A stretch of 64,000 bases of DNA from positions 27,356-91,355 of the forward strand of contig NW_017893380.1 of assembly GCF_001540865.1 (NCBI RefSeq). Reading direction: 5' to 3'. The notes beneath the pieces are model-generated. The model was not told the origin of the DNA, ran no database searches, and saw only the letters and a list, made by a program, of their open reading frames with translations. The translations under genes were made by a program, and so were the position numbers. Every line of letters starts with the position of its first letter. Positions within the stretch are counted from its first letter, which is position 1. Below, piece by piece: positions 3,886 to 59,618 of this stretch. Source of the DNA: Ananas comosus. Lineage: Eukaryota > Streptophyta > Magnoliopsida > Poales > Bromeliaceae.

Positions 3886-6414
3886 TGTCACGCCCCGAAC
3901 CCGATCCTATTTGGCCAGTTCGAGAGCGTGATACAGACGCCGAACGGACAGAGCCTCCCCTGTCCGCCCAAGGCTCAACAACAGGTACAAATAGAGTATA
4001 GAAATTTCGTAAGCGAAAGCATACACAATGGCTTGCACGAGGGCAAGCAATAGCCAAGAGTGAAAGTAAACAACTACACGTAAGGAATCGATTACATTTT
4101 TCATCATTTATTTTCTTTTACATCACAAGATCTCAAAATATCATTCTCGCATTTAAATATAAAGGTCTTTCACAACATACATGTTCTTTTCTTTAACAAC
4201 TAAATCATCAAGCACAAAAGATGACATATAACAAAAGGGGTATGCAACTAAATAGATAAATGTCCCGGGCGGTCTCTACCTAGGGCGCGATGCCCTTACC
4301 GCGATCGTCTGCCGGCTCGCTGGGTCCCGGCTCTGTGGAAATAGGGGTGTGAGAACTACAACAAAGTTCCCAGTGGCTTCGGCAACCAACCACGCCGACT
4401 ATCCCACTAGGTCTAATCAGGCATAATAGAATAAAGGAAAGTAAGTAACCAACTAGCAAATGCACTAATATGCCTGAACAATATAAAATGATATGCACAA
4501 TATAATGCTCATGATGAATGCAAGGTCATAGTGTCAATACCCAATCTCTTGGCTAACCCGTAGGTTTCGCCCTCAAGAAACTCACCAACTCAAAATCCCA
4601 ATAATCGGGGAGATACCCGCGACAACCCGATGGGACCGTCCTCTGGGGAGATACCCGCTACAACCCAGTGATGTCGATTCCGGAGCACATCGCCGGAGGG
4701 GGAGCTACCACAACCTCGAGCAAGTACTAAAGTGAGTACGATCAATCCTACATTCGAGGATTCCAAGTTCAATCCATTCCTTAACTTTAAGGAAGACTAT
4801 GCTCAAATGACTCTTAACACTAAGGTTGAATGTCATAATATCTCGGTCGTTCTTGTTCTTACATTCTTTTCTATCACCAATGTCATATACACTATCAAGT
4901 TCTTGTACTCATGCCACACTTGTTTACTAAGTGTTCTATATTCTTGTTCTCATGATCAATGCCACACTTGTTTACTAAAGTGTTTAGACTCGTCGATGTC
5001 ACTTGCTAAATCTATGTCAAAGTGTTACTTTTCGTTACTAACCCTTCTAGGTTCTTGTCACAATCATGCATACATAGGATCATCATTCTCACATTCTTAC
5101 ATACATTTAACATGCATTGAATTTATATTAGACTATATAAAAGAACTCACAATTAACCCTATTATGCAGGATGCTCAAAACGCATAAATGCTCAAAGTAT
5201 GACACTTAGACATAGGGAGATTTTCGATGTCCGTGGAATACACCCACCTTAGAGGGTTACAGGATGCTTCGGTGAATTTCTTGAATTTTGAAGCCCTAAT
5301 CCGCGTGCTGCGGCTATCTTACGGAAAACGACGTTTTTTCAATAACTTTGCATACACTCGTCGCATTGTCGAACGAGCGTTCCAACGCGTTTAAAATCCT
5401 CAATTATGTTTCTACATGATCAAAATAGATCAAAACCTAACTTGGGCAAAACCCCTCTTTGGGATGCCCTAACATGCCATTTTTGCATTTTTCTAGATTG
5501 ATCCCATTACTAAGCAAGAAAGCTTAGAATCACTTGGGAAGCTCTCTAATAAGGTTCTAAACTTCTAGAAACCATCTCTAGGGCATCTACTTTGAGCCTA
5601 GTGATCCACCATGAGAGGGGCCCAAGAATTTCATGTTTTTCATGGAGTCATGGTCCGTAGAGGATTTCCTCACTTGTAGAGAAGATCAAACCCAAAAACT
5701 ATGGTCTAACCCAAACCCTAAACTCATTTTTGTATTAAGGACTCACCTTTGCCCAAGCTCCCACAAAGCCCTACTTGTTGGAGAGCTTTAGGCCACCAAA
5801 GCACCAAAGTCCACTTCCTCCAAGCTCTTCTCCACCTTCTCAAGCTTTAGGGCTTGCTTTCTAGAGAGAGAAAGAGAGGAAAATGAGAAAGGGGGATGTG
5901 TGTGGCTGTGGGGAGAGAGAGAGAGAGGTGTTGGGGAGTAACATGTTGCTACAATTGCAACTAGGCCCCCACAAAGTCTTATTGCATCAGACTTCGAAAT
6001 GCTGTCTGGGGCTCTTGTACCGGTACAAGGGTTCTTGTACCGGTACAAGGCCAGGCAGTAAGCCAAACCCGAGAGCTGCCTCTCGGTGCGCAGGGTTTGT
6101 ACCGTACAAGAGTCTTGTACCGGTACAAGTCTGGACTGCACCAAACCGAGAGCTACTAAGCTCTGGTCGCTGCTTGTACCGGTACAAACCATCACCCTTG
6201 TACCGGTACAAGAGTCCAGAGATGCAGTTTTGACTTCGATTCAGCTCTACTTCGCGCCGTCGTTGACGCCAAAACCATTTTAACACTTCTCTAACTCATT
6301 TTTCGCCCCTTTCAACTTGTCGGGCAGCAAGAGGAACTTGTCCATCGCTTTCCTTCGACACTTTAACCATTTGGTTAAAGTTCGAATATCGTTTTCGGGT
6401 TTCGATACGTTACA
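3886..6414 (-). repeat. Element A 5' LTR (2529 bp)
   Basis: Minus-strand LTR beginning TGTAACGTATCG at 6414 and ending GGGGCGTGACA at 3886, next to the PBS. It belongs to the same family as solo LTRs F and G, sharing the start, the GGGAGATACCCGCTACAACCC segment (4607-4690) and the end. The U3 carries the palindrome array at 6014-6212, followed by a GA-rich leader near 5860-5930. Open frames inside it (for example 4732-5187) have no protein similarity I recognise and are chance. Confidence 0.92.
6014..6212. promoter_or_regulatory. ACCGGT palindrome array in LTR A U3
   Basis: Five copies of CTTGTACCGGTACAAG (one with a terminal mismatch) and one copy lacking a base lie in 200 bp. The first two start exactly 20 bp apart. 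A second inverted repeat, CCGAGAG-ctgc-CTCTCGG, lies between copies near 6069-6086. A role as a transcription-factor binding array is inference from its U3 position. Confidence 0.75.
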
Positions 6415-7897: not shown

Positions 7898-10800
7898 AAC
7901 TACAGAAAATGATTTATAGGTGACAGTAAAAATTTGTCACTAAAAATAAAAAATTTGTCAAATAGTTTTAGTGACGATAAATCGTCTCTATAAGTTGTCA
8001 TGGTAGGTCCCGTGGCAATAGATTTTGTCACGGAAAAAAAAATATTGTCACGGAAAATAGTATTAATGACAAGTTAATTTTGTCACTAAATATTACTTAT
8101 TTTCACCAAATAATATTTACGAAATGGTTGAACATTAAAAATAGTAATCTTAGGTGAACAACATATGCCATCACTAATAGTTAGTGACATCATTATCTGT
8201 CACTAAATTTACATTTATGACGATGATTATTCACTACACACTAATATTTAGTGATAATAAAGCTTGTTACAGAATATTGCATTTATAACGATAATATTCA
8301 TCACCGACATATTGTCACTAATATTAGTGACAACAAAACCATTATTTATGATACAGTTCCAAACAATCAATTGATATTTATGATAAACAAATCGACGAGA
8401 TTTTTAAGCTCTAATAATGAAAAGGCATTAATATTCTCCATTCGTCATACAAAATAATCCCAATATCTCCAATTTTTAAGTACATAACAAGAGTTTTCAA
8501 ATTCAAACTAAATGATTCAATCTAAAATAAGTACATTTGATATACATGGTCCACATCAAATAAAGGATTGTCGAATACTAACACTACACTGCGTAAAAAT
8601 TGCACCACTCATCCTTACCTGCAATGAATAAAAAATAAATATAATTAGACAAAATTAAAATATGAAAGAAGATAAAATAAAAAATATTAATGTTAAGATA
8701 AGTATGATCCAAGTGGGGCTACATTTCTTTTTCTCAATGTATGCTCTTTCCTCATCTTCTAATGATTTTAATTTAATTTAACAAAATAAAGCTAGAAACT
8801 AACTGAAAAATAAAGCTAGAAATAGATGTCTAGAGTGGCAAATGATAGATAGATCAAGAAATGCTGCAGAGTTTGCAATCAACTCAAAGGTCAAACGATG
8901 AAGACCAGTTTTCTAGGCCGACGAAATAGCAAAGCAATCCTGTAAATATTCGATCTCCTCTTTAATCTTAATTTGTTGGAGTATGACAAACTCTCTTTAA
9001 GCCCGATGAGGACATCAGGGCATGTTCAGATAACCCAGCTATTTATTATCAATTTGATATTGGTTTCAGAAAATCAAACCATGAAAACAATTTTTGTGGA
9101 TTAGGAGAGAAATATAATGATAAGTAAATGAGCATTTTAAAGTCTTTATATACATTTACAAGTCGAGAATAACAAAAATGTACTTAACACATATCTAAAC
9201 CCAAAGTCAAACAGCATTGAAGACACTAATTAACCTACACGAGCTAGCTAGTCATAATTTTTTTTGCCAGTAGAGTCTCTCTATTACAAAGAATTAATTG
9301 ATACAGACCAACTGAGGAGATTGCCAACCATACAATTGTTCTCATTGCTATGTTTAGGACATGAGTCATTGTTTAGACCAATCAATAAAACTGATGACTC
9401 TAAATATTCCATCAACCACTCCAGGAGCATAGGCTCACCTTCATATGTGGTCCAAGCAACAATGATCAAGTAAACAATAAAATACATGTAAAAATGATAG
9501 AAAACTTATCTGAACTAGAACATTTTGAATCTACTAGCTTATCTGAACTAGAACATTTTGAATCTACTAGCTATATAGATTTCCTCTTGTGGTTGTAGGA
9601 GTTTGATTTTACTCCCTAACAGGGTATTTACAATCATGAGTCTTCAGTATAATGCAATCACCAACAAGGAGATTTATCATATTATGAGAAATAAGGTCTG
9701 AAGGTCTGTCTATTATAGATTTTAGAATCATTTTATACTCCACTAACTAGTCATCATAAGCTCCATAAGGAAATGAAGTTCTAAGACTAAATATAACCTT
9801 TTAGAGTACCAAACATAATGCCACATCAAAACTACACAGAATGATTATTGGAGGAAGCACAACTATAGTAGAAGTCCTCCAACAGCTATTCTGCTATATT
9901 AAAGCAGAAACTTCACTTTGGAGCTTCCGCTTATGAGTCTCGAAAGCTCATTTTAGCTTCCCACAACAAACACAGTCTCTTATTGCCAAACACTTGGTTG
10001 TGCTCCTCCGATCAGATAACATTCTCTATAATTCGCGCCAAATAATCACTTAAGTAATTTTAGAGCACAGGGGCAAATCGATTTTACACTTACAGGATCT
10101 CAAGTGAGCCCACAAGTCCAACCGACTTTGGAATCCCCCTATTACTTGGTTTCTATCAAGAAGCCTGTTTTCAAGGGACGATTAGACAGAATAAAAAGAG
10201 ATGTAGCAGAATAAAACAAGTGCATAATAAATATTAACTTCAGGTGTCTAGTGTCATACTAGCATTGAAAAAAATTTTTGGTATCGAACACGATAACTGG
10301 TTCTTGTTTAAATGGCTGCAGGAGCACACCATGAAACTAATTATAGCTCTCCAAGCAATGAAAATAAGCCACACTAGTTTATTATAGGGCTTTACATGTA
10401 TAACCTGCGAAAGCATTTGTTACATACATACCCTGGTACTCACATCCAATTTTGGGAAGTTTGGTTTCTTATCTTTTCGTAGATAAAAGATATAGATCAA
10501 ATTTTACACGTGCGTATATATAAATACAATTTTTTCAGGGTTACATATGTAGAAACATCTTTACAACATTCTGTGTATGGACGGGTGAATGAGAAGAAAA
10601 GATACTCACAAATGTTGTGCATTGAGGAGTTGATCCAAGCCGGAGACGCATTCATCGACACTGGAGAGTTCCATTCAACTGATTATCAGCAAGGTCTAGC
10701 CAAGAGAGGTTCGAAAGCTTTCCCAATGTAGCAGGTATCCTTCTATGAACTTGTTGAGTTCAGCGTCCTGCAGCAGAAATTTAAGAACTAATTATATGCA

Positions 10801-11959: not shown

Positions 11960-12612
11960 TGAAAGTTTGAGGAGCCACAGTCTATCTAGATTGTATCTAT
12001 CACCTAGAGCGTGGTGAATAGGTGAACGCCAAAAAACCACAAATCTCGATGCAATAAAAAATAAATGCGGAAAATAAAAGCACACCGAGATTTACGTGGG
12101 AAAACTCCAACTTGGAGAAAAACCCACGGACCGAACACGCGAAAAAATAATTCACTAGAGAAAGATTACAAGTGATTACGACTCCACGGACTCAACTCTC
12201 TTAACCTCCTATGAATCTTCGCGCTACCCCTCCGGGTTGTCCACGCCCTCATGTTCGAGTCCAACGCCTCCACTCCGAATCCACGAAGCTTCAATCACGC
12301 CAATCCACGAGCCCACTCGAATCCATGAGCCCACGATCGAATCCACGAACCGCCGTCAAATACGCCGAATCCACGACGCCACCATGACGAATATCATGAA
12401 TATGGTGATCCTTCGCTTTGGAGTATTGTAGAAAACCAGGGAATAGAACTCAAGCTAAGCGGAGATCAAATCGACATATTAATATCAAATTTCAATATCT
12501 CGATTTGATCTAAAAGAGGCTTTTGTAGAAAATAGGTTTTGATGAAATCGAGCCTCTAGGGTTTCTCAATATGTATTCTTATGATGCTTGATCAGTTAGA
12601 GAAGCCCAATAG

Positions 12613-12623
12613 CTTATTTATAG
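12613..12623 (-). promoter_or_regulatory. TATA box of copia I LTR
   Basis: The minus strand reads CTATAAATAAG. It lies about 470 bp into the LTR and about 51 bp downstream of the palindrome array, the position expected for the U3 promoter. Confidence 0.65.
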
Positions 12624-12673
12624 ACTTTAGAATCAATTGGAGTCGGATTAGAAAGATTTCACGATTTTACACT

Positions 12674-12816
12674 GTGTACCGGTACACTTTAGGCTGTCAC
12701 CGGTTACACAATGACGGAACGAAAAACCTGACGAAACAGTGAAATCGGTTACATCCTTGATGGTCGTACCGGTACACATTTTGTACCGGTACACTTCTGA
12801 TGCTGTACCGGTACAC
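12674..12816. promoter_or_regulatory. ACCGGT palindrome array in copia I LTR
   Basis: Four copies of GTACCGGTAC plus one degenerate copy (TCACCGGTTACA). The segment CCTTGATGG-tcGTACCGGTACAC followed by TTTGTACCGGTACAC is nearly the same as in the gypsy LTR of element H at 57212-57253. Confidence 0.75.
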
Positions 12817-13092
12817 TTTGCAAATTTTCGCCGTTTCGGATTTTGCAAAGTTCCGATGCACTTTCTAATCTGTTAGACAATGATATTATGATTCTAATGT
12901 CTACAACTAAGTATGAATCACCACAATCATGAATTAACACTTTACCTAGACATCGTGATTCACGGTGTGAGTTATTGTGAGTTATTTTCCAACTTCTTCG
13001 AAATCTTGAATTCTTCGATCTTCGACAACACGCACTGATTCTTCAAGACTCCGACTCACTTCACGAAACTTGCCAACACACAAGACTTAACA

Positions 13093-16069: not shown

Positions 16070-16090
16070 TAGATAACAATTTATCTAGAT

Positions 16091-16648: not shown

Positions 16649-17101
16649 AATTTTCTGACACTGTGCATTTTCTGTTAAAATAACAGCCTCGATTCACACA
16701 GAAAATTCAAAATCTTCTGTTCTCGCTCCGATTTCCGCACGAGCCGTTCCCGACTTATATTTTACTTCTATAAGTCCAATAAAAATAGTATCTCACACTA
16801 TTTTTATTTATACCCTTATTTTAAAATCCGGTATGCTACACGGTCCCTCCCTGCCAGGGACCGGTTCCATCACGCAACCCCGCTGCGCCCAGCCAGGGGA
16901 ACCGGTCTCTCACCTGCAGAGACCGGTCCCCAAGAGCAACATCAGCCCAATGATGCAGTTTGCCTCATTTACTCTTGCGGACTCAACTCCAAGGCACTTT
17001 TTGTGCTTTGGACATTCTCAACTCCGACAAAGGGTATACTTTCGACAATTAGTCGATCCAGGATGAAGTACAATCCTCATATTTCGAGAATTCACTTCCT
17101 T
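16649..17101. repeat. Orphan LTR-like fragment
   Basis: It contains three to four GGACCGGTCC-type palindromes (16841-16945) like those of LTR C and J, and no coding sequence. It joins directly to the truncated LTR of element D at about 17102. Its parent element is not otherwise present. Confidence 0.5.
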
Positions 17102-18106: not shown

Positions 18107-20624
18107 TGTAGCACACTGGACCTTTGCAAATTGCGAGGTTCGAGTGTTCGATTTGTATTTCGAACTTTTCCACACTTGGTGGAGGGCCGTCGATGGTATA
18201 CCGGCCTAAAAGTTCGATCTCGAGAGTTTTGGCAGAGTCCTGAGAGTTTTTACTCTCGGGGACCGGTCCCTGATAGGAGAGACCGGTCCCCTAGTGAACA
18301 GTGCGCAAGCAGCCGGCGAGGCAACCGGTCCCTGGCTGTCGAGACCGGTCCCCGAGCGCGTCTGCGCGGGGAGAGACCGGTCCCGCGCAGGGAGAGACCG
18401 GTTCCCGAACGTTGGATTTTCGGGGGCAGGCTGAGAGACCGGTCCCAGGTCGGGGAGACCGGTCCCTCTGGGCGAAAACTGCCCAGACCGGGCTGATGTA
18501 AATTTGAGTTTTTGAGGGGCCTAACCGGATTTTGTTACCTTAGAGGCTATAGGCAGCCTCTCCTCCCCTCTGACTCTCATTTTCTCTCCCTCACACTCTT
18601 CCTACACTTCTAGAGAGAGAAAGGGAAGGAGAAGAAGGAGAAGAAGAGGAGAAGGAGCTTGCTTGGAGGCCTTGGAGCACCACCTTCTTCCTCATTTCTT
18701 ACCTTTGGAGGCTTGGAGCTTGCTTTTGGAGCTTTGTGGTGGATCAATCTTCAACCCTTGAAGATTTTGAGCTTGGTTTGGAGCATCCTAGAGGTAGGTG
18801 GCAAGGTTCCTTCCTCTAGATTTTAGTTTTGGAGCTTTTTGCTTGTCTAAACCCTAGATTTTGGATTTTAGGGTTAGATATGGGGATTCTTGATTTGAGG
18901 CTTCTTGATCTCATTTGAATGGTTTGGAACCTTTATATAGGTTAGATTGGGAGACCTCTACCTTCCATTTGAGGATTAAAATAGGGTTTTTCACTTGAGG
19001 TGAGTTTTCTCCAACCCTAGCTTGAGAAGCTTAGTGTTTGAGCTATTTGCTCTTCGTTTCGTTTGGGTGACCCTATTTTTGATGTTTCTAGGGTACTAGG
19101 AAGCTTGTGGATACCTTCGTTCGGCGAAACGAAGAATTCGATTTTGGTGGGTTTGACTTCATGAAAATGGGGCAAAATGGTCCCTTTGCCTTCTAGACTT
19201 TTGTAAAGTATTTTTGAATGCAAATTCATACTAAACATGATTTATATGAATTTTAAAACACTTAACATGCATGCCTCATGTATCGTAAAATTTGTACTCC
19301 ATATAGTAGAGCTATATGTGTAGATTGCATGCATTGTGGATACTGCTTGGTTTTGCAAGTTGAGAACATGTCTCCATGCTAGAATTGAGTGAACTATGCA
19401 TCATGAACATATTAATGCCATGCTTGGGACTCGTTGAACAAAAGTGTCATAAAGGGGCACTTGGAATTAGTAAACTATGAAAATGCAACTTAGAGACATA
19501 ATGATAGGCCATTGTACATCTGCTATATATTCCATGTTAGAGACATGATGACATAGAGATAGGCCTTTGGGACATTCGATACATTCCTTGTTATTAGACC
19601 TGAGGACTTGGTACTTGCGACAGATCGTTTGACTACTTGCCATTGTGCTCATTCGCACATGCTTGTAAGGGTCGCTCCCTACAAGCCGGCACTCTGGAGA
19701 TAGCCATCGCGATTCATATTCGCCGTGCGGGATTGGGCGCCGAAGTGGATTGCCGTGGGACAGGCTCATTCCTAGGGTGGGGATGATGACTACCACGGGG
19801 CCATTAGGCTCGGCACCGGCCAGACAGCCTACGGGTGGGTCTCAGGGCCATAGATAGCCTTCGGGTGGGTCTCTTCAGATTTGACTTTGAGCATTCATTA
19901 TGACATGTGGACAGATGACGACTTAGTGTACTACTTAGACATGGACTAGAATAGTAAACAACGGAACTTTACTATTTCGCATTGTGAACATTATGATAGT
20001 TGGAGACTTTTACTTCATGCATAGTTGCTTCATACTTATGCTAATTATGCTAAGTAGAGATATCATGTTGTAGTAAATTACATTTTTACTTACCTTTCGC
20101 TTTTCTACTTTTATAGTCACTGACATCTTTTGTAGTTTTGGGCCTTGTGGCGCATTCACTGAAGTCAGTAATTGCCCACTGGGAACTATTTTTAATAGTT
20201 CTCACGCCCCTGTTTTATGGTTTACTTTTCAGAGCCTTCGGCACCGGCGGAGGCACGGGATCGCGGCAAGGGGATCGCTTAGCTAGCTAGCGAGGAGCGG
20301 TACTTTGCCTAGGTGGTTTACTCTTTCTTTTTGTAGTTGAGAGAGTGAGAGGTTTTGTCTCCAAGTATAGAGACCACCTATGCATCTACCTATAGCACTT
20401 GTATCTGGGATTTCCTTGTATCACTTTATGTTTTATTTAGTGGATTTACAGTTTTATCCTTATCCCTTGTTGTAGCATTTAGACATTTATTATGCTCTGA
20501 TACTCCTAGATGTCTTTTATTATTGCTTTTATTATTGTTGTTTTTAGACGCCTTATACGTTTTAGACGTATGGCGGGTCAGGGCACGCGCCGGGCGGGCT
20601 TCCGCTGGGTCCCGGGGCGTGACA
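18107..20624 (+). repeat. Solo gypsy LTR C (2518 bp)
   Basis: It begins TGTAGCACACTGGACC, ends GGGGCGTGACA, and is flanked on both sides by the 5 bp duplication GTTTA (18102-18106 and 20625-20629). The D 5' LTR shows the empty site near 25296. Same superfamily of LTRs as B, H and J. Confidence 0.92.
18258..18468. promoter_or_regulatory. GGACCGGTCC palindrome array in LTR C
   Basis: About eight copies of RGACCGGTCCC-type palindromes in 210 bp, spaced about 20-40 bp. They lie in U3 upstream of the GA-rich leader at 18595-18650. This is the G/C variant of the core found as GTACCGGTAC in other LTRs. Confidence 0.72.
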
Positions 20625-22339: not shown

Positions 22340-22978
22340 TTCTCCCCTCCTTTAAAAGAGTTTCGTCCGCGAAACTCAAACCGTGCCTCAATGCGACTTA
22401 TCGAACAATTGAGGGCACTGATGCACTTTCCTAGTTCGGAATGGCTTTACACTTTTTGGAACTATCCAAGAGGCCCAATACGGAGAGTACAATACCAAAT
22501 TCGTACAACTTTGCAAGGTGAATCTCGCAAAGTGCATTACGGTCTTCGTTATTCTTGGTGGTAGCGCAAGTCGAAACTCAACGACTTTATGCGCTCCAAT
22601 ACCATTCACAACCTGGCACGCAAGGACTTTTCTTTGCATTTACCTTCCCCCCCAGGGTATTCCGATTCGATCACCATCATTGCTTAGGAGCAACATTACT
22701 GGTGTATCGCTTCATCATGGGTGCTTCAATCACATTTGGATCTTTGCTCTATTGAGAGATGGCCCACTCCGACGCATCTCAAATCTCAACCCACAAAAGA
22801 GCATTATCCTCAAGTTCTCCAACTTCTCCAACATAACCCAGCCCGCCTTGGCAAAATTCATACTCTGGGACTGGTCTTGCCCTAACTGGGACTGGTTGCC
22901 CCGCACTGCGCAACCCTTCGCCTCGGGGCAACCGGTCCCTCCCTTTTGGGACCGGTCCCCGAGAGCATGCTCGCGCAG
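22340..22978 (-). other. Element D chimeric non-coding spacer and PPT
   Basis: On the minus strand the PPT (AAAGGAGGGGAGAA) lies at 22340-22353, preceded by the hairpin GAGTTTCGCGGACGAAACTC near 22359-22378. The rest has no coding sequence. The part at 22860-22965 contains GGACCGGTCCC and GGGCAACCGGTCCC palindromes like an LTR U3, so an LTR piece seems fused to the cut end of gag. Confidence 0.65.
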
Positions 22979-24061: not shown

Positions 24062-24068
24062 CCTTATC

Positions 24069-37806: not shown

Positions 37807-38007
37807 TGTAACACACTGGACCTTTGCAAATTGCGAGGTTCGAGTGTTTGATCTGTATTCTGAGCCTTTCCACAGTTTTTGGAGGGTCGTAGATAGAGTT
37901 CTGACCCATGGCTCACATTCCGAGAATTGAGGTTTTAAACTTGGCACCGAAATCCAAAAGATTGGATTAGTTGGTCAGCTCTCGGGTTGCCTCTGCAGGG
38001 TTGTATA

Positions 38008-38124
38008 CCGGTACAACCTTGATGGTTGTACCGATACAGATGTGGATTATAGCCAATCCGAGGCTCGGGTTTGCTGTCTCGCAGGATTTGTACCAGTACA
38101 CTTTTTCGTGTACCGGTACACTTT
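38008..38124. promoter_or_regulatory. ACCGGT palindrome array in LTR B
   Basis: Four copies of TGTACCGGTACA-type palindromes, two of them with one mismatch, including the phrase CTTGATGGTTGTACC. A TATA-like TTATCTATTTA lies at 38173-38183, about 49 bp downstream. Confidence 0.7.
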
Positions 38125-39026
38125 GGCAGAACTGCAAAACTGTAATTTTTCAGGGGTATTTTTGCATTGTTGCTTATCTATTTAGCCCCCATGCCCCTAG
38201 GGCTGTTCCTTGAGCTTGGAACAGCAGGGATTGAGGTAAAGGAGCTCTCCCCTCCTTCTCCTTGGCTTTGTCTTGCCTTTTGCTTGAATTTTGGTGTTTA
38301 ATCACCTCTTTTTGCTCCTTGGTGGCATTTCCTCCGTGATGAAGGCTTGAAGCTTGGATTTGGAGCTTGATTGAGGGAAGATCATCACACCTTGTGGACT
38401 TTGAGCCTTGATTGAAGCTTCTAAGAGGTAGGCAACTTGTTCTTTCCTCTAGATTTCTTGTTTTATTGGTTGATTTGAGATGAAACTCTAAAATGGGAAT
38501 TTAGGGTTAATTTTGGGCATTTTGGATTTAGGGCTTTTGGAGCTTAATCTTTTGGATTAGAACCTTCCTCTAGGTTGGATTGGAAGGGTTCTAACTTCCT
38601 TTTGAGGATTAATAGAGATTATCACCATTGTAGGTGAGTTTTTACCCCCTTGCTAGAATTGCTTAATGTTTGAGCTTAGGGTTGTTCGTAACGTATGAGT
38701 ATCTCTTCTCTTGTAACCTTTAGGGTATTAGGAGAATTGTGGACAACTCCGTTCGGCGAAACGAAGGAGTTTTAGCGAAGCTTCGGTAGGTTTGACCTCT
38801 CCAAGAATGAGAAAATCTCATTTTTGTTGATTTGAGTATCGTAAAATGAAAAATTATTTATTTTCATGTTAGATGCATTATTTATGAATTTTAGAATGCT
38901 TAAAATGCTTATGTTGTATACAATGCATTTTTGAACCTCTATGTAGTAGAGAACTTGCATGTGGGATTTATGCATGAGTTAGCATTCGCATTCGGGACTT
39001 GAAATTATGTTTCATATAGTGGAAAT

Positions 39027-41000
39027 GAGTTAGCATGCGCCACTAGACCCAAAAACTACAAAAGGGGTTAGTAAACAAGTATAAGTACGAGCGATGAGTG
39101 CAACAAGTAAATAAACAAGAATACTTGCTACCACAAGATATCACTACTTAGCATGATTCTACTCAAGTAATAAAATGCTACACTAGCATGAATGTACCAA
39201 AGTATCACTAGTATGATGTCCACAAGCTAAATAGTAAAGATATCATTGTTTACTATTCTAGTCAATGTCCACATGGCATGATGAATGCTCAAAGTCAAAT
39301 CTGAAGAGACCCGTCCGTAGGCTGTCTGGCTCTGAGACCCACCCGTAGGCTGTCTGACTGGTGCCGAGCCTAATGGCCCCGTGGTAGTCAACATCCTCAC
39401 TCTAGGAATGAGCCTTTTCCACGGCAATCCACTTCGGCGCCCAACCCCGCATGGCAAATAGATATCGCGATGGCCATCTCCGGAGTGCCGGCTTGTAGGG
39501 AGCGACCCTCACAAGCATGTGCAAATGAGCACAATGACAAGTAACCAAAAGATCCGTCTCAAGTACCAAGTCTTCATGTCTAACAACATGGAATACGTCA
39601 CATCTCTCGTAGGCCTATCTCTATGCCATCATGTCTCTAACATGGAATATAAAAGATGTCAATGGCCTATCACTAAGTCTCAAATAACAGTTTCATAGTT
39701 TGCTAGTCCAAGTGCCCCTTTATGACACTTTTGGTCTCTATGTCCAAGTATGATAATTATGTTCATGAATGCATAATTCTAATCATTTTCATCGTACGAG
39801 ACAAGTACCCAACTAGCAAAGAGAACCACTTCTCACATGCATGCTAAAAAAAACCCAGAATACCCTACTACATAGAGTGAAAAGTTTATGATACATAAGG
39901 CATGCATTTTAAGTATTCTAAAATTCACATAAATTCTATTTAGCATGTATTTGATGTCAAATTGAGATTACGATAAGTACAATATGCATAGGGGCTATTT
40001 TGCCCTGTTTTCATGAAGTCAAACCCACCACAACTCTTGCAACTCTTCGTAAGCTTCGACGAAGATGCCCACTAGTCTCCTAGCACCCTAAAGATGTAGG
40101 AACAAGAGTCAAACGGACCTTACGAACAATACAAAGCTCAATCATTAACCATCTCAAGCTAAGGTGGAGAAAAACTGACCAAGTGTGAAGGAAGCTCTCT
40201 CGATCTCCAAATGGGAGTTAGAGTCCTTCAAATTCAACCTAAACCAAGATTCTAAACCCATCAATTAGGTCTCAAAGCCCTCAAATCGAAAATCCCCAAA
40301 ATAAGCCATAAAATCCAAATTTAGAGTTTCATCTAATAAAAATCTCCAAAACTAGGATCTAGAGGAGAGAAACTAGCCACATACCTCTAGGATGCTCCAA
40401 ACTAAGCTCAAAATCCTCAAGGATTGGAGTTTGATCCTCCACAAAGCTCCAAGTCCAAGCTCCAAGCCTCTAATGGTGAAGAAAGAGAGAAAGGGTTGAT
40501 GCTCCAAGCTCCCTCAAGCAAGCTCTTCCTCTCCTCCTTCTTCATCTTCTTCTCTTCTTCTCTTTCTAGAGGTGTGAGAGAGTGAGAAGTGAGGGGAAAT
40601 GGCTTTAAAAGCCCTCTAAAGCAATAAAATCCAGTTAGGTCCCTCAACAATCAAACCTGTGCACTGTCCGGGTCTGGGCAATTTTCGCCCAGAGGGACCG
40701 GTCTCTCCCAACTGGGACCGGTCCCTCAGAACCCTCCCGCAAAACATGCTCTCGGGGACCAGTCTCTCCCTGCCAGGGACCGGTTGTCTCAGGTTTTGCC
40801 GCGACACTATTCCGTGGGGACCGGTCTCTCCTACCAGGGACCGGTCCCCGAGGGTGAAAACTCTCAGGACTTAGCCAAAATCCAGGAATTCGAACTCTTA
40901 GGTCGTAATACCATCTACGACCCTCCACCAAGTGTGGAAAAGCTCGGAATCCAAGTCAAGCACTCGAACCTCGCAATTTGCACAGGTCCAGTGTGTTATA
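39027..41000 (-). repeat. Truncated minus-strand LTR J (C family)
   Basis: It aligns in reverse with LTR C from its start (41000, TATAACACACTGGAC) to the TAGTTTTGGGCCTTGTGGCG region, and lacks the last roughly 450 bp. No clean target-site duplication is visible. It carries its own palindrome array at 40693-40851. Confidence 0.8.
40693..40851. promoter_or_regulatory. GGACCGGTCC palindrome array in LTR J
   Basis: Six GGGACCGGTCYC-type palindromes, two of them with mismatches. A TATA-like GGCTTTTAAAGCC palindrome lies at 40601-40613, about 80 bp downstream on the minus strand. Confidence 0.7.
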
Positions 41001-42360: not shown

Positions 42361-42753
42361 CAGAGTCCTCGGCTCCTGCGCCTCCCGGATCGCCTGCATG
42401 AGGGCGGAGGTAGCGAGGGCCTTAACACTGCGATTCTTGAGGCAAATGGCGGAGGAGCAGTCCTTGAAGAGCTCAAAGGCGTGGTCGGCGATGTCGTGAT
42501 CGAACCCTAGAATGGAGGCGACGTCGATGATTTGCAGGTAGGCTCGGAGGCTGTCGACGGAGATTAGTGGAGCAGCCTTGAGGGATCGGCGCCGCCGCCG
42601 CCGAGGAGGGCCCGCTCGAGCTCGGCGAAGTGGCCGGAGAAGGAGAGGGCGGATCGGGCAAAGACAGGGGCAGGCTCGATGGAACAGGCGGAGAAGGCGG
42701 TGACGAAGCCGGTTGGGAGGCGCTCCTCCACGACGCGGCCGCACGAGGCCTCC
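42361..42753 (-). pseudogene. PBRP: pBrp-like (plant-specific TFIIB-related) gene fragment
   Basis: On the minus strand one frame reads the end of a TFIIB-type zinc ribbon (SCGRVVEER) and then PTGFVTAFSACSIEPAPVFA, SALSFSGHFAELERALL. After a frame change near 42575 a second frame reads LRAYLQIIDVASILGFDHDI and CSSAICLKNRSVKALATSAL up to QEPRTL. This matches the ribbon-linker-first cyclin fold of pBrp, a plant TFIIB-related factor reported at plastid envelopes and in Pol I-linked transcription (family knowledge). Compared with the family, the stretch between the ribbon and PTGF is missing. After PRTL comes TAG, or a GTAGGT splice donor. It is broken at both ends. Confidence 0.78.
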
Positions 42754-42761
42754 TTTTATTA

Positions 42762-49385: not shown

Positions 49386-49595
49386 AACCGGTGACAGCCT
49401 TGGATGGTACCGGTACCATACTGCTGACTGAGAGCAGTAGCTCTCGGGTTAGCCTCTGCACGACGGTGTAACCGATGACACCCTTAGCTTGTACCGGTAC
49501 CAAGTCAGCTACCCGAGAAGGCAGCTCTCGGGTTTGGCTGTTGCTCAATCGTGTAACCAGTGACAAAATCAGTAGTACCGATACGCAGTGTCCCT
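49386..49595. promoter_or_regulatory. Degenerate ACCGGT array in LTR F
   Basis: Two clear palindromes (GGTACCGGTACC, TTGTACCGGTACCAA) and four decayed ones of the form GTAACCGGTGAC. They alternate with inverted repeats such as CCCGAGAaggcagcTCTCGGG. Confidence 0.6.
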
Positions 49596-50055: not shown

Positions 50056-50058
<3 letters not shown>

Positions 50059-50103: not shown

Positions 50104-50106
<3 letters not shown>

Positions 50107-50236: not shown

Positions 50237-52013
50237 TGTAAGAAAATTGCGTATGGTGGAAACGCAGCGGAAAAAGAAATCAAACAAATTTGATTTTTGA
50301 AAACTCTCGAGATCCAATCTCAAAAACCAAACAATTAGGATCCCTCATGTTCTTTAAGATTAAAGGAGAAAAGTTCGAATCTTTACCTTATTCGCGGATA
50401 AATCTTCACCTCAATTTGATGATCGTGGAATTCGGTTCTCTTGAAGCCGCACACGCGTCCGGCCTCTATAGGTATCCACACGAGGTTCTTGATTTGATCG
50501 ATGTCCTCACCGGGGTGCTAGCTCCCTTGCAAAAGGACGTCTTTCTTGCTAGAAGATGGAAGAGAGAAGAGAGGATAGATGACGGCTAGGGTTTTCTAAA
50601 AACTCCCATATATTATATATAGGAATATAATCCTATTCCTAATAATATAATGACAATTAAGGATAAGTATAAATCTAGATTTAAATTTATCCTTTCCTTA
50701 ATTAGTTAGATCGATCAAATCCAAATTTGATTCGACTTGAATTTTATATTAATTTGATCTTATCAAATTAATAATGCAACAATTGCACATAAGTCCTCTT
50801 ATAATTTACTAACTATTAGTAAGTCCTCTCCTATAACATTTACACTTTAATACCACTAATTTGTAACAATTACAAATTAGTCCAATTATCAACATATTGA
50901 CAATTAGTTCCTCCGGCGATTCAATAATCGCGATCTAGCTATCCGATCAATCACAACCTCTTATGTGTGTGACCCCGTAGGTTCTAATCTATCTGGTAGT
51001 GAGATATATTTTGATCACTATCAACAATATCACTGAAACTCCTTTCAATGGATCAGAACAATTCCAACTCAGCCCAATGAGAATTATTGATCATCTAGAT
51101 AATTCTCATGAGTCTCACAATCCACCAGTGACGCCTAGCAGCATATCGTGGCATTCTAGTAGAATGGAATACTGAACCTCTTGGTGCAGTTACCGTGTGA
51201 TACAATCCTTCTATCATGAGTCCCGACTAGATGGAGGTTATGGAATAACTCGTCAAAACCCCATCGTCTGTCATATGTTAAATTTATTCGACTCGAGTTT
51301 CTAATATCGGAAATCCTTTTCCGCTTTTTATTCTGCCCTGGCCAAGGTCTTCTAAGCTCGGTCTCATAAATCACATAGGACTAACACCCCTATCTACCAA
51401 GGGAGATAGATTCCATCTGAGTGCGCACCCTATTCTTACAATGAACCTACTGCAGTCAACATACACTGCAAGGACCCGAATGGGTAGGGACCAAGTGTAT
51501 GTACAGTCAAACTACAGTAACCTCATTGTGAATAGCCGAGGCACCACAGGTCAAAGGACCAGTCACACTACTGCAACAATTGAGTAAGTCACTGACGAGT
51601 GAGTAGACATCCAAGTGACTTCTCGGGTTGGTCACGCTCGGTACCCTTGTTCTCTAACAACTACCTGTATATTTGCTTCAGTGTCCCCACACTGTTGACT
51701 CGAGACTTGTCTACCCAGAAAAAGAAGCGACCTATGCACCAATCTCATCGGATCAATCACCGTCCCTGTGATAATCCATTGATCGGGAGTATTTAGGAAT
51801 TAACCACCAATGACACATGTCTCAAAATTCTCAACACTTGAGAATATATGTCATCATCTTATTAATTCCCTGGACGATTCAGGGACACATACACAATATG
51901 AATGGAAATAAAAACCCAAAGTTATTCATAATATTTAAAAGTCAAATACAAATTTATGTCCTAGAAAGAATATATGTGTCGGCCTGGTTGGCTTCTAGGG
52001 CATACATCTAACA
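50237..52013 (-). repeat. Solo copia LTR K inside LTR G
   Basis: The minus strand begins TGTTAGATGTATGCCCTAGA at 52013, a start widespread in monocot copia LTRs, and ends TTTTCTTACA at 50237. The flanks CAAAG and AAAAG are a 5 bp duplication with one mismatch. LTR A shows the empty site (ACAACAAAGTTCCCAG). No internal genes. Confidence 0.85.
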
Positions 52014-53584
52014 AAAAGTTCCCAGTGGGTTCGGCAATCAACCACGCCGACTTTCCCATTAGGTCTAAATCAGGTATAATAGAAGAAAGGAGATATAGAT
52101 AGTAACCAAACTATACAAATGCAGCTAATATGCCTGAACAATAATCAATGCAATGCTCAATAGTATGCTCATGATGAATGCAAGATCACAATCTCATTGC
52201 CCAATCTCTTGGCTAACTCGTAAGCTTCGCCCTTAACAAACTCATCAACCCAAATCCCTACTATCGGGGAGATACCCGCTACAACCCGAAGGGACCGTCC
52301 TCTAAGGAGATACTCGCTACGACCCAGTGATGAAAACTCTGGAGCACACGCCCGAGGGGGAGCTACAGCCCTCGAGCCAGGACTATGGGTTAGTACGATC
52401 AATCCTTAACTTTAAGGATTCCAAGTTCAATCCATTCCTTTACTTTAAGGAAAATCTTGCTCATATGACCCTTAGCTCAAAGGTTGTTATGTCATAATGT
52501 CACTATCACACATTTGCTTGCATTCTTTATTTTCACTAGTGTCATATACATTACTTGTTCATGTACCCACACACTCATGTCACACTTATTTTCTAAGTGT
52601 TCAACTCTAGTGTTCTTGACTCATCCATGTCACTTACTATCTTTATGTTAATTATGTCACATTTGTTCTCTAAATCTACTAAGTTCCTGTTATTTATCAT
52701 GCATACATAGGGTTTGTTAATTCTCACTTTCGTACTAGTATTTCACATACATTTGAACTCACAATATGCAAGAAAGCTCACAAGTAATCCCTACTATGCA
52801 TTTATGCTCAATACATACATATGCTCAAATATGACACTTCAGACATAAAAGAAAGTTCAAGGTTGTCAGAATGCACCACCCACCTTAGATGGTTGAGAGG
52901 ATGCTACGGTTCAATTCTTGAGATTTTAGGGCGCCTATTTTCTCGCCTGCGGCAAAACGAAGCCAAATCAGGCTTTTTCACAATAACTTTATCTAGACCT
53001 TTTCGTAACGTCGAACCAAGTTGCCCAGCGTGTCGGAAATACCCCTAATTAGGTTTCCAAGAGGTCAATTTACCTCTGAAACGATAAGAGGCAAAAGCCC
53101 CAAATTATATGCCCTAACAATGTCACTTTGCTAGATTTCTTGGTTTGATCTTGAAGCTAAGCAAAAACAAGTTTAGAACCTTCCAAGAAGCTCTCTAATA
53201 CCATTCTTAACTCATTTGAACCATTCCTAGGGCATCTACTATGAACCCTAGATGTTCACCGTGGGAGCACTTGAAGAAACCATGGATTTTCATGGGTTCA
53301 AGGTCTCAAGAGGGTTTATAACCTTGAAATAAGATCAAAACACAAAGATCTAAGATAAAACCCAAACCCTATAACTTACTCTTGCATAAAAACTCACCTT
53401 AGCCCAAGCTCTTCCAAATCCACCTTGATGGAGAGCTTCCCAAGCCTTCAACTCCACCAAAATCTCCTTCAATCACCTTCTTCTCCTTCTCCTCCTTGCT
53501 CTAGGGTGTGCTTTCTAGAGAGAGAGGGAAATGAGAGAGGGAGAGAGTTGGGGTGTTTGCTGTGAAGGGGAGAGGGGTTGTGTT

Positions 53585-53595
53585 CATTTATAGTG
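53585..53595 (-). promoter_or_regulatory. TATA box of LTR G
   Basis: The minus strand reads CACTATAAATG, 73 bp downstream of the palindrome array and just upstream of a GA-rich leader. Confidence 0.6.
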
Positions 53596-53667
53596 TGCAA
53601 CAATTGCAACTAGGACCCCCAAAAATTTTTATTTACAGCAGACCAATTTGGTGCTACCAGACCAAAG

Positions 53668-53869
53668 TGTACCGGTACACGGCATTTTGTACCGGTACAG
53701 GCCTGCGCAGAGGCCAATGCGAGAGCAACCCTCTCGGGTTAACACATTTTGTACCGGTACACACCAGGGGTTGTACCGGTACACTTTCGCGCAGAACTCA
53801 AACCCGAGAGCTGCTATCTCTTGGTCTGCTGGTTGTACCGGTACAACTCGATGGTTGTACTGATACACT
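53668..53869. promoter_or_regulatory. ACCGGT palindrome array in LTR G
   Basis: Six TGTACCGGTACA-type palindromes, five with an intact core, in pairs 19-25 bp apart. Between pairs lie CGAGAGcaacccTCTCG and a decayed CCGAGAG..CTCT repeat. Confidence 0.75.
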
Positions 53870-56195
53870 TTGCCCAGATTACAGTTTTTGCACTGTTTCG
53901 ACTCTATTTCGCGCCGGTCGATGCTAAAACTCTTCTAACCTCTCTTAAACTCACTTTTAACCCTTCCAACATTATTGGAAGGTTAATTGAAACTTGTCCA
54001 ATCAATCCTTTCGCACACTTTAGTCAATTTGGCTAAAGTTTGATATTTTTCTACCGAGTTTCGGTACGTTACACCACCACCCCTCTTTCTCTTGTTCTCA
54101 GCTGAGAACTCATCTTCTCTCTAATTTTCTCCCCCTCTCTCTCTAGAAACTCTCTCCCAAGGTTAAAAGGAGGAGATCAAGAGGTGGATTTGGAGGAGAT
54201 TTGGAATTTAGAAGGCTTGGGAGCTCTCCTACAAGGTGGACCTTGGTAAGCTAGTGGGCTAAGGTGAGGTTTCTTGTAAGAACTAGGCTAGGGTTTGGTT
54301 TTATACCCTAGAACACTTGGTTTTGATCTTCTTACATGTATAGAAACCTTATTGAGGCCATGGAATCGATGAAAACCCATGGTTCTTCATGTACTCTCAT
54401 GGTGGATTTCTAGGGTTTGCTTTAGATGCCCTATGGATGGTTCAAATGATCTAGAAATAGTTCTAGATTAGTTTCTAGATGATGAACAAACTTGCTTTTG
54501 CTTGTTTTAGAGATCAAACCAAGGTATTGGGCAAATGACATTGTTAGGGCACCAAAATTGGAGTTTTGGCCCTTTGTTGATTTAAAGGCAAATTGACCTT
54601 ATAGAAACCAAATTGGGGATATTTCTAACTCGTTGGTGGACTCGGTTCGCTAATCCGACGAGTCTATGTAATGATATTGGGGAAAAGGCCTAATTTGGCT
54701 TCGTTTTGCCGTAGGCGAGAGAATAGGAGCCCAAAAATCACGAGATTTGAACTGTAGCACCTTTACAACCATACGAGATGGATGGTGCTTTCCGAAATCG
54801 ATGAATTTTCTTTTATGTCTAAAGTATCATTTTTGAGCATTTGTGTATATTGAGCATCTTGCATAGTAGGGTTGATTTGAGAGCATGTGTTGCATGTTGT
54901 GAGTACAAATGCATATGAGATGATTGTAAACTAATGAGAACTTGTAAACCCTATGTATGCATGTATGATGACAAGAATCTAGAAAAGGTAAAGGACTTAG
55001 TGACATTGAGAACAAATGACATTATGACATAAATGTAGAGTGTGGCATCAATGAGTTTGAATGCTAGAGTTGAACACTTAGAGTGCGGCATTGATGAGAA
55101 TAATGAATGCATGAAAATGAGTTAAAGAACACTTAGTGTGTGTGACATCATGAAAGTTAAAGAATGCAAGTAAAGTGACATAGTTGACATTATGATATAA
55201 CAACCTTATAGTTAAGAGTCATATGAGCATTGGAATCCTTAAAGTTAAGGATTGATTATACTTACCTAAAAGTCTTGGCTTGAGGGCGGTCGCGCCCCCT
55301 CGAGCGATGAGCTTCGGAGTTGTCATCACTAGGAAGGTGTTTGCCCCAGAAGACGGTCCCGTCGGGAGGAAGCTGAGGGCTTGATAATAGGGATTTGAGC
55401 TAGTGAGTTTATTAGTCCTGTCGGGAGGAAACTGAGGGCCCGATAGTAGGGACTTGGAACTGATGTCCTATCGAGGGCGAAACCTACGGGTTAGCTAAGA
55501 GAATTGAGAATTGGAAAGTAATCTTGCATTCATCATGACCATTCTATTTTAGCATAATCAGTGATTATATCTTTTTCAGGCATATTAGCTGCATTTGTTT
55601 AGTTGGTTACTATCTATCTATTCTTCTATTATGCCTAATTTGGACCTAGTGGAAAAGTCGGCAAGGTCGGCGGCAGAACCTACTGGAAACTTTGTTGTAG
55701 TTCTCATCCCCCTTTTTCCACAGAGTCGGGACTGAGTGAGCCGGCCGACGATCGCGGTAAAGATATCGCGCCATAGACAGAGACCACCCGAGTTGGTTAC
55801 ATTTTGTTTAGTTGCATACCCTTTATGTATTATCTTTTGTACTTGATGATTATAGATGTATTAAATGATGTTAATTGTAAAGGGTTTATTTTGGTGATCT
55901 TGTGATGTAAAAAGAAATTATGCAAAGAATGTAAAAGAATCTACAAGTTGAATGCATGCATGTGATTAAAAGTTAATTATTTTACTTATATGGATATTTA
56001 GTTTAGTACTTTCACTTTGGCTATTGTTTGCCCTCGTGCAAGCCAATTTTGTATGTTTCTGTTTGTGCAAATTTCTCTACTTGATTTGTACTTGTTGTTG
56101 AGCCTTGGGCGGACATGGGAGGTGTTGTCCGTTCGGCGTCTGTTCGACGTGCCCAAACCGACCAAATAGGACCGGTTCCGGGGCGTGACAAAGGG

Positions 56196-57003: not shown

Positions 57004-59618
57004 TGTGACGCACTGGACCTGTGCAAATTGCGAGGTTCGAGTGTTTGGACAGTGTCCCGAGTTTTCCCAGACTTTCTGGTGGGTCGTTGACAGTGTTCCG
57101 ACCTATGGCTCGCATCCCGAGAATTGTAGTATTTTTTGTAGCGCTAAGGTCACTAAAGAGTTGGACATAGGCTACCCTCGGATTGCACTCTGTACAAGGT
57201 GTACCGGTACACCCTTGATGGCTGCACCGGTACATACTTTGTACCGGTACACTTTTGATGGTTGTACCGGTACACTTGTGGCAGATAGCGAAACCGAGCC
57301 TCGGGTTTGCATTTTCGTAGGATGTGTACCGGTACACTTTCCCGTGTACCGGTACACTTTGGCAGAATCTGAGCATTTGGAACTGCAGGGGGTTTTTTGC
57401 GATTGTGGACCCTTATAACAGCACCCACGCCCCATAGGGCCTCTCTTGTGCTGGAACCTGAGGAGGAGCAAGGTAGGGAGCCCCTCTTTTCCCTATTTGG
57501 ATTTGATCTCTAATTTCTTGAATTTTGATGGATTTCCCTCTCTTTTTCCCTATTGAAGCTATTTCCACCATTGTTGGAGCTTGGAGCTTGGACTTGGAGT
57601 TTGATTGAGGAAGATACTTGAAGTTTGAGGACTTTGAGATGGTTTTGAGGTTTTAAGAGGTAAGTGGCAAGATCCTTTCCTCTAGTTTTGGATTTTAGAG
57701 CTTTCTTTGGAGATGAAACCCTAGTTTTGGGACTTAGGGTTTATTTTGGGCTTTTTGAACCTAGGGCTTTTGAGGCTTGATTGGGTTGGTTTAGGACCTT
57801 CTAGGGCATGGATTGGACGGGTTCTAGCTCTCTTTTGGATTAGGAGAAGATTTCTACTCTTGAGGTGAGTTTTGGCCCTTTTTGCTTCTAGGTTAATGTT
57901 TGATTTATATAAGATGGTCGTAATGCCTCGTATCTCTTCGCTGATTACTTTTAGGGTATTTTGAGATCCGGGGGACAACTTTGTTCGGCGAATCGAGACC
58001 CTACGCGACGGTTCGGTGGGTTTCACCTAGCCACACAATGAGAAATTTTCATTTGGCTTAATACGGTATCGTTAAATGGAAAAACATGCAAATTCTTATT
58101 GTATGTATTTATTGTGAATTTTAGAATGCTTAAAAGGCCTATGTTATATATGATGAAATTTTGGACCTCTATGTAGTAGAGAGTAGCTTGGTTGGCCTAT
58201 GGTTGCACTTAGCATTCTATACGAGATGTGGTTTCATGCTCCTATAATGTAAATAAGATTGGATTCATGCATTTAAACATAAGTTTAATTGAGACATGAA
58301 AGATGACGGTTGCTATATATATAGGCATCGAATTTGATATCATGTGAATTAGAGAGTTAATGTCATCAAGCGGCATTGAGCTCAGGACATGTGTGAACCT
58401 AGTGGATAGGGCCATTGAGGGATTTGGAAAACATGTTGAACATCAAATTGCCTAAGTGTCATCAAGGGGCACTAGGCGTAGCAAATGTTGAAACTTCACA
58501 TTGTGACTTAAACTAGATTTTCGGGATGCTAGTGACTATCCCATGTTAGAGTCATGAGGGTTGGATACTTGAGACTTGGACTATGCTTGCTTGCCATTTG
58601 TGCTCATTCGCACATGCTTGTGAGGGTCGCTCCCTACAAGCCGGCACTCCGGAGTTAGCCTACGCGACCTATGTTCGCCGTGCGGTATCGAGAAGCCTAC
58701 GGGGTCGGGAGGGATAGACTCATTCCTAGAGTGGGAATGTTGGGGCTACCATCGACACTTAGGTGGCACAAGCTGGATTACAATTTGTAGATCCTAAAAC
58801 ATGTTTGATTAATGACATTGAACCGGGAATGGATAATCACTACTAGATAGGTTTAGTAGTTGAATTACATTTATATGCTTTTAGCATAGGGTTGAGACAT
58901 GTAGTATACTTGATAGTCTCCTTTTGCATTAAAGCATACTTGGTTGCCATGACATAACTTATGCATAAGGTATTCATAAAGGTTAATGATTTACCATTTG
59001 ATATCATAGTTGTACATCACCATGACATCGGTTATACTTGAGTTGGTAATTTAGCATTTTTAATTATGCCTTTATATCGCAGTCATTATTGCTATTATTA
59101 TTGTACTTACCCTTTTCTTTTGGGGCCTAGTGGTGCATTGAGCTGAGGTCAGTAATTGCCCACTGGGAACTATAAATTATAGTTCTCACGCCCTCTTTTT
59201 CTTGATGTTTTTCAGAGCCTTCCACGCAGGGAGAGGCCAGGGATCGCGGAAAGGATATCGCCTCGGGCTAGCGTGCTTACCGAGGGATCGTTCGATAGGT
59301 GGTCTACCTCTCGTGTTTTCTTTTTGTGAGAGGTTGAGAGTTGTACCCGTATTTGTATAGAGACCACCATTTTTGTACTTGAGGCAGGTTTTGTACTACT
59401 TATTGTTCCTTTTATTGTCTAGCTTTATTTCTATACTTTAGTGTAGATGTTAGAACTTTACTCGCTTTGATATCGTTCGTTGCTCGTTATTTCACTTCTT
59501 TTATTCGTTCTATCTCTTGCTTTACTTCCGCTTTTGTTCTAGACGCCTTATATGTATAGACATATGGCGGGTCTGGGCACGCTACCGGGAGGGCCTCCGC
59601 CGGTCCCGGGGCGTGACA
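57004..59618 (+). repeat. Element H 5' LTR (2615 bp)
   Basis: It starts TGTGACGCACTGGACC and ends GGGGCGTGACA next to the PBS. It shares long stretches with LTRs B and C. U3 carries the palindrome array, and a TATA-like CTTATAAC lies at 57412-57419. Confidence 0.92.
57200..57357. promoter_or_regulatory. ACCGGT palindrome array in LTR H
   Basis: Six copies of TGTACCGGTACA-type palindromes (one GCACCGGTAC variant) in 160 bp. They carry the spacer phrase CTTGATGGCTG/TTTTGATGGTTG and a CCGAGcCTCGG inverted repeat between copies 4 and 5. TATA is about 55 bp downstream. Confidence 0.78.

Follow-up and report, generated by a model that had tools for sequence, protein, structure and literature searches.

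Long terminal repeats (LTRs) of retrotransposons in pineapple, Ananas comosus, carry arrays of the palindrome ACCGGT, and such arrays occur in two superfamilies, Ty3/gypsy and copia, of one genome. From their sequence we consider it probable that they are enhancers in the U3 region, bound by a dimeric and likely host-encoded protein acting as an activator, because the sites are symmetric, the core is constant in unrelated LTRs, a TATA-like box lies downstream in most of them and the spacing is helical. The arrays were analysed in a stretch of 64,000 nucleotides (the window; positions 27,356 to 91,355, forward strand, of contig NW_017893380.1 in RefSeq assembly GCF_001540865.1), where ten arrays and the LTRs that hold them are lettered A to J, and in a fixed-position genome sample of 20 stretches (200 kb).

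The arrays are real and widespread in the pineapple genome. Among the 6-nt palindromes of the window ACCGGT is the most frequent (n = 55), and 44 of the 55 copies fall in the ten arrays, which total 1,556 bp and would hold 0.3 copies at the outside density, the array bounds having been drawn around the motif itself. The window contains five matches to CTTGTACCGGTACAAG with at most one mismatch and 16 with at most three, against averages of 0.0 and 0.1 in 20 Markov shuffles, while genome-wide TTGTACCGGTACAA occurs 3,486 times and its reversed control 81 times. In the fixed-position sample, nine arrays of at least three intact cores lie in five of the 20 stretches. An earlier note on this DNA had listed nine arrays of 4-8 palindromes: all nine are confirmed, far above chance, and each holds multiple copies, but the range of intact cores is 2 to 8 (Table 1; five single-change copies were scored besides), and a tenth array, J, had been missed. 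Methylated copies would be expected to decay by C-to-T or G-to-A changes at the four methylatable positions, and 10 of the 12 single-base core variants from the window and the sample are of this kind. Searches with two LTR-derived reading frames brought up seven predicted pineapple proteins in which the translated motif is repeated (YRY, VPV, CTGT, DRS or GPVP in each) and which are presumably mispredictions of LTRs; viral contigs searched with two consecutive TGTACCGGTACA gave zero matches.

Around the fixed core two outer forms are found, TGT-ACCGGT-ACA in A, B, E, G, H and I (26 cores) and GRG-ACCGGT-CYC in C, D, F and J (18 cores), the outer dyad being uniform inside an LTR group and different between groups. 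Flanking bases are complementary at the first, second and third positions in 35, 30 and 41 of the 44 array copies, compared with 1, 5 and 4 of the 11 copies outside arrays. Distances between neighbours in the window (n = 39) concentrate at 20-24 bp (21), 40-42 bp (6), 59-62 bp (5) and 80-84 bp (3), the exceptions being 17, 17, 32 and 69 bp, and 41 spacings in the fixed-position sample favour the same period, with an extra group at 70-75 bp. The best period is 10.2-10.4 bp, and the 25 distinct values give P 0.001-0.002 against random distinct values. Pairs of CCGAG...CTCGG also stand between palindromes of some TGTACC-class arrays (6069-6086, 49513-49531, 57294-57304) and may be chance; as a second array element this dyad was rejected, its 5-mers being near chance frequency in the window (67 and 54).

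The carriers had been called copia, yet most prove to be Ty3/gypsy, by Pfam domains (A, E, I) or by LTR similarity (D, F, G, H), and B alone is copia. LTR I is followed by an RVP_2 protease, reverse transcriptase, RNaseH and an integrase zinc domain, LTR A by protease and reverse transcriptase, and LTR E is preceded by a chromodomain with an E-value of 0.0003, below Pfam's cut-off. The LTRs with both ends visible (D, A and I) measure 2,518, 2,529 and 2,615 bp, with ends GGGGCGTGACA, and the primer-binding site TGGTATCAGAGC is exact at 59627 (plus) and 3878 (minus). We take this site to be of the tRNA-Met type and tied to the Del/Tekay lineage. The gag-protease frame at 59931-61727 has 52 matching proteins among 7,993 candidates scored, all from Ananas comosus, the top match showing 71% identity over 98% and the second 97% over 62%. 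With their long LTRs and this primer-binding site, the gypsy carriers are probably Del/Tekay-like, and Del is described in the available part of one source as the dominant pineapple lineage (PMC6022998).

Element B has a Retrotran_gag_2 domain inside and an internal region with four AGGGGGAG tracts, a type of tract that the available text of PMC2829016 describes as multiple in Sireviruses; by these tracts it appears Sirevirus-like. Another copy of this family was met in stretch L011 of the genome sample, where one LTR matches nearly all of B's LTR and carries two intact and two changed cores in the same slot, followed by the same TATA box (CTATAAATAAGC), and a second LTR piece, matching only the first 286 bp of B, carries changed copies.

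In LTR orientation, the distance from the LTR start to the first core is 155 to 274 bp in A, B, D, E, F, H and I. The TATA-like box that had been reported downstream of the arrays is present on the LTR strand, at a distance of 32-84 bp from the array, in seven of ten (B, C, D, E, F, H, I), and is missing there from A, J and the truncated G; on the opposite strand a box is found in two of ten. Canonical TATAAAT is confined to B, C and H. Orientation is independently known for eight arrays, six of which have the box; the strand of C rests on the box itself, and that of J is uncertain.

Eight LTR pairs were aligned with gapped columns excluded, and Fisher tests were made for four of them. Core identity exceeds identity elsewhere in D-F (35/36 versus 273/368, P 0.0005), E-I (22/24 versus 273/424, P 0.003), A-H (32/36 versus 323/534, P 0.0003) and H-G (29/36 versus 288/447, P 0.03), so that the proposed stronger conservation of the palindromes relative to flanking U3 is borne out in half of the pairs and neither in the other half nor in the copia pair. 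The D/F and E/I LTRs share about 100 bp before the array, 76-80% identical in D-I and F-I, and although their arrays can no longer be aligned, an ACCGGT array occupies the same slot in each, which indicates that the array was replaced or rebuilt with its core kept. Of the two processes suggested earlier, homogenisation is visible in the group-uniform outer dyad and in a shared 74-bp block.

This block is seen when copia array B and gypsy array I are aligned on the plus strand, over 74 columns and with nearly equal spacings. In this pair, chosen from 45 in both orientations, spacer identity is 27/30, a value reached by one of 2,000 palindrome-preserving spacer shuffles, and the block is inverted between the two LTRs when read in LTR orientation. 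It looks related by descent across the superfamilies, in inverted form. By BLAST the block is met again in L002, L004, L009 and L017 of the genome sample, in part in inverted form, with E-values that include the palindromes. Exchange of the array block in either orientation would be the simplest reading, with the B-I pair as its main basis. A similar homology between B and E, seen with a loose mask, was dropped, as it vanished under a stricter one (538 of 2,000 shuffles as good).

In the mechanism that we propose, a host DNA-binding protein, or a family of such proteins, working as a dimer would read each ACCGGT palindrome. With the palindromes on one helical face and often two turns apart, several dimers could stand side by side upstream of the TATA-like box, and the assembled dimers would drive LTR transcription, acting as activators and not as repressors. 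Ty3/gypsy elements of the Del/Tekay-like kind and copia elements of the Sirevirus-like kind would both use this device, having acquired it repeatedly, perhaps through exchange of array blocks between elements.

Several observations weigh against this mechanism. We know of no plant factor that fits both dyad classes. The TATA pattern is loose and was scored without a chance control; some spacings (15, 17 and 91 bp) fall out of phase, and the common ancestry of the arrays means that spacings are not independent in the larger tests. The conservation counts omit columns whose palindrome is absent from one LTR (12 core columns each in D-F and E-I), arrays fail to align in the remaining four pairs (A-G 17/33, D-I 31/65, F-I 21/52, D-E 30/53), and the two copia copies, B and that of L011, show no difference between cores (25/30) and the rest (376/460). 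Under the strict mask, E, H and A have no match to B beyond the palindromes. As single explanations, SPL and TCP were rejected: by their motifs, SPL (GTAC) fits the TGTACC class only and TCP (GGGACC) the GGGACC class only.

The palindromes might instead act as RNA, U3 being at the 3' end of the genomic RNA, where neighbours could pair into long hairpins that are useful to the element or are cut into small RNAs by the host, a role of the kind proposed for maize Sirevirus palindromes. Predicted folds do lie below 100 dinucleotide shuffles each (z of -12.0 for A, -9.6 for H, -8.5 for I, -6.3 for B, -5.2 for E, -4.1 for J, -3.9 for F, -2.9 for D, -2.4 for G and -2.1 for C), and the accessible part of PMC10760457 relates that small RNAs gather on Sirevirus palindrome clusters (Bousios 2016). 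Such folding, however, follows automatically from a repeating self-complementary motif, hairpins between neighbours need neither inner motif symmetry nor a constant core, both of which are seen in unrelated families, and targeting by small RNAs may follow from an enhancer without being the reason for it; we hold an RNA role to be unlikely. Quite unlikely, in our estimate, is an array without present function, in which tandem duplication and gene conversion would have spread a palindrome-rich block and uniformity would reflect shared ancestry. Array blocks that are alike beyond the palindromes in several pairs, cores no better conserved in four of eight LTR pairs nor in the copia pair, and core decay that is mainly C-to-T at methylatable sites all agree with it, but passive spread leaves unexplained why cores outlast spacers in the other four pairs, and it must be set against an array slot that persists through replacement of the block itself and against arrays upstream of the promoter in two superfamilies.

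The arrays could also be bound by a factor that the elements themselves encode, such as an anti-silencing protein like VANC, co-evolved with the outer dyad, which switches as a whole between related LTRs much as VANC target motifs, in the excerpted account, do through tandem repeats (PMC5735166). A single factor of this kind would have to serve both gypsy and copia, however, and no added DNA-binding gene was found in the 30 of 51 stop-to-stop frames (at least 120 codons) scanned with Pfam, many of the elements being broken; we regard it as very improbable. The domains found in those 30 frames are gag, zinc knuckle, protease, reverse transcriptase, RNaseH and integrase-type domains, one weak chromodomain, and TFIIB-, Helitron- and Rep-like fragments.

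Downstream of the promoter, some 300-480 bp are nearly without CG and CHG in all six gypsy LTRs of the window that have both array and leader. At LTR positions 470-890, CG counts are 0 in D, 1 in I, 3 in E, 4 in F, 1 in A and 1 in H (mononucleotide-shuffle means 15-21), and CHG counts 0, 0, 1, 2, 1 and 1 in the same order (dinucleotide-shuffle means 10-18), with no CTG in the leader versus 38 expected from base composition. The window's four longest CG/CHG-free stretches are the leaders of D, I, E and F (Table 1), and a truncated seventh leader (54102-54640) has two CG and one CHG. Simulated unbiased drift would create 21-39 sites where 1-6 are observed (seven comparisons), real plant mutation being C-to-T biased; recent deamination was rejected as the source, since TpG and CpA are mostly not raised there. 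Against a special role of the leader, CTG and CAG are depleted elsewhere in these LTRs too (0.38 and 0.50 of the expected number), the leader is poor in GTC, TGT, ATA, TAC and GTA as well, and CHG is low at 950-1400 too in D, I and F (1, 2 and 3 versus 11-13).

The leader marks some subfamilies and not the array as such. Such a stretch, ranking no higher than the 1.2 percentile among 1,904 background windows, stands on one of the two sides of five of the eight evaluable arrays in the fixed-position sample, L009 being too short to score; the three arrays that have none are those of L017 at 7880 (where the LTR match ends beside the array), L020 at 4558 (C-like) and L020 at 3991 (no family assigned). 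It is found in none of four motif-picked rows, among which L002 and L003 are one array and L004, about 7.4 kb away, may be the other LTR of the same element, and copia B has no CG-poor leader (26 CG). The idea of a constant companion of the array was dropped on the sample and motif-picked counts. A two-part silencing-escape promoter is distinctly doubtful: in it, symmetric methylation sites near the promoter would be concentrated in the array, the 300-480 bp that follow would have been purged of CG and CHG, heritable methylation would act only through the array, host-factor occupancy would set the epigenetic state, and the array would be traded between gypsy and copia in either orientation. 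This proposal is weakened by the low CHG further along the LTR and by the other triplets scarce in the leader. About 600-700 bp from the LTR start, the leaders of 57004-59618 and homologous LTRs have a recurring sequence that resembles a 5' splice site (AGAGGTAAGT, AAGGTGAGT) and suggests an intron starting inside the LTR.

Positions of the arrays and of their LTRs are collected in Table 1. A single N at 16648, where the 5' LTR of copia element B ceases to match its 3' LTR, is a probable assembly join, and for that reason the surroundings of array C may be misplaced. A short element at about 21873-24061 (minus), with gag at 22885-23730, lies between two LTR copies (pieces 17102-21872 and 24068-26543) and is perhaps a non-autonomous TR-GAG element; solo LTR D sits in one of these LTR copies. 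The window further holds a repeat pair, 7899-11959 and 26545-29217, 92-95% identical in pieces, whose second copy starts near CACTACAAGAAAA, a sequence like a CACTA transposon end, as well as a TFIIB-repeat-like fragment (42361-42969, minus) and a Helitron-like fragment (48284-48694, plus).

Table 1. ACCGGT arrays, host LTRs and associated features, in window coordinates.
Feature	Position	Strand	Description
LTR A	3886..6414	minus	2,529 bp, TG...CA; 5' LTR of Ty3/gypsy element; primer-binding site 3878 minus; protease/reverse transcriptase 453-2341 minus
Array A	6014..6212	minus	5 intact CTTGTACCGGTACAAG-type palindromes and one shortened copy, within LTR A
LTR B	11960..13086	minus	copia element, Sirevirus-like by its features; copia-type gag 15056-16084; primer-binding site 16105 minus; four AGGGGGAG tracts internally
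TATA box of LTR B	12615..12623	minus	CTATAAATA, 51 bp beyond array
Array B	12674..12816	minus	5 intact TGTACCGGTACA-type palindromes, in copia LTR
TATA box beside array C	16805..16812	minus	TATAAATA
Array C	16841..16945	minus (strand inferred from TATA box only)	3 intact GGGACCGGTCCC-type palindromes; LTR without family assignment, near N at 16648
Solo LTR D	18107..20624	plus	2,518 bp; 5-bp target duplication GTTTA; sits inside another repeat
Array D	18258..18468	plus	8 intact GRGACCGGTCYC-type palindromes; spacings 20, 42, 20, 32, 21, 41, 20
CG/CHG-free stretch, LTR D	18570..19055	plus	485 bp, downstream of promoter; longest such stretch of the window
Array J	22927..22960	minus, strand uncertain	2 intact GGGACCGGTCCC-type palindromes, changed copies beyond; no recognisable surrounding LTR
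Domains just before LTR E	37178-37750		integrase SH3-like domain and weak chromodomain
LTR E, first part	37809..38952	plus	3' LTR; remainder at about 41006-41883, beyond inserted LTR F
Array E	38004..38121	plus	2 intact and 2 single-change TGTACCGGTACA-type palindromes
CG/CHG-free stretch, LTR E	38335..38687	plus	352 bp
LTR F	38953..41000	minus	truncated, inserted in LTR E; far end inferred from break in E
CG/CHG-free stretch, LTR F	40287..40632	minus	345 bp
Array F	40693..40851	minus	5 intact and 1 single-change GRGACCGGTCYC-type palindromes
Array G	49386..49595	plus	3 intact and 1 scored single-change palindrome; truncated LTR starting 49177
LTR H	52011..54073	minus	far end truncated; gypsy by similarity to LTR A
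TATA box of LTR H	53586..53593	minus	CTATAAAT, 75 bp beyond array
Array H	53668..53869	minus	5 intact palindromes and one with two changed core bases; spacings 20-22 and 62
LTR I	57004..59618	plus	2,615 bp; 5' LTR of Ty3/gypsy element; primer-binding site 59627
Array I	57200..57357	plus	6 intact TGTACCGGTACA-type palindromes; spacings 23, 17, 23, 62, 20
CG/CHG-free stretch, LTR I	57458..57818	plus	360 bp
Coding part after LTR I	59931-63926		gag-protease-reverse transcriptase-RNaseH-integrase zinc domain

Among known systems, the closest is the repeated motif of Sirevirus LTRs. The parts of Bousios 2010 available (PMC2829016) describe it as multiple palindromes, each with CG in its core, that cluster in the LTR's upper half and precede a TATA box, which follows the motif-bounded CpG island at a mean distance of 37 bp; it is kept while flanks diverge, and its binding factor is called unknown there. 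The same parts state that the motif is Sirevirus-specific and absent from classic Ty1/copia, give a CGG...CCG signature for all but one element, and count at least eight copies per element, with 3-14 in the LTR; they make no mention of gypsy elements. The pineapple arrays likewise are clustered palindromes upstream of a TATA-like box (in seven of ten), but they do not have the CGG...CCG order, CCG and CGG overlapping in reverse order in the ACCGGT core; moreover, most pineapple carriers are Ty3/gypsy, and the same core stands in two superfamilies of one genome. In copy number, pineapple has 2-8 intact cores per LTR array, with eight in D only, while the paper counts per element; copia B has five ACCGGT cores in the LTR and none in its internal part.

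In ONSEN/COPIA78, according to the sections available of PMC3907296 and PMC5059998, clustered sites for a host factor, heat shock factor (HSF), stand in the LTR and were gained repeatedly by different LTR families, and the ONSEN promoter is given as free of CG and CHG (PMC3907296). Clusters of host-factor sites in the LTR and their repeated gain are what we propose for the pineapple arrays too. As far as those sections go, ONSEN differs in having HSF sites in copia, where pineapple has ACCGGT in both gypsy and copia, and in that its promoter itself is CG/CHG-free, whereas in pineapple the array and upstream U3 are CG/CHG-rich and only the post-promoter region is nearly free. VANDAL elements are DNA transposons. 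They encode VANC, whose target motif, in the part of PMC5735166 at hand, is short, amplified in non-coding transposon parts, changes in type between subfamilies and is not palindromic. The pineapple outer dyad resembles it as an amplified non-coding motif that switches type between subfamilies, but VANDAL encodes its binder, and the frames scanned here yielded no such gene.

Literature searched by the motif letters gave one lead among the matches listed, other titles looking unrelated and probably reflecting primers: OsMYB4P, a rice R2R3-MYB that, in the text available, bound an ACCGGT-containing probe in electrophoretic mobility shift assays and interacts with itself (PMC12483970). It differs in concerning a single promoter site without link to LTRs and serves as a lead only. 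None of the matches listed in a search for ACCGGT with factor terms contains ACCGGT, and neither ACCGGT arrays nor arrays of this kind in Ty3/gypsy LTRs are reported among the matches listed, by their titles and abstract openings, from the open-licence literature. The pineapple arrays would extend to Ty3/gypsy elements a device reported as Sirevirus-specific. If our reading is true, two retrotransposon superfamilies of the same genome have captured a single host regulatory input, and convergent or exchanged enhancer capture becomes directly testable, with thousands of natural variants of one binding site. The CG/CHG-poor leader beside a CG/CHG-rich array, in turn, could be used to test how sequence is shaped against maintenance methylation in plant elements.

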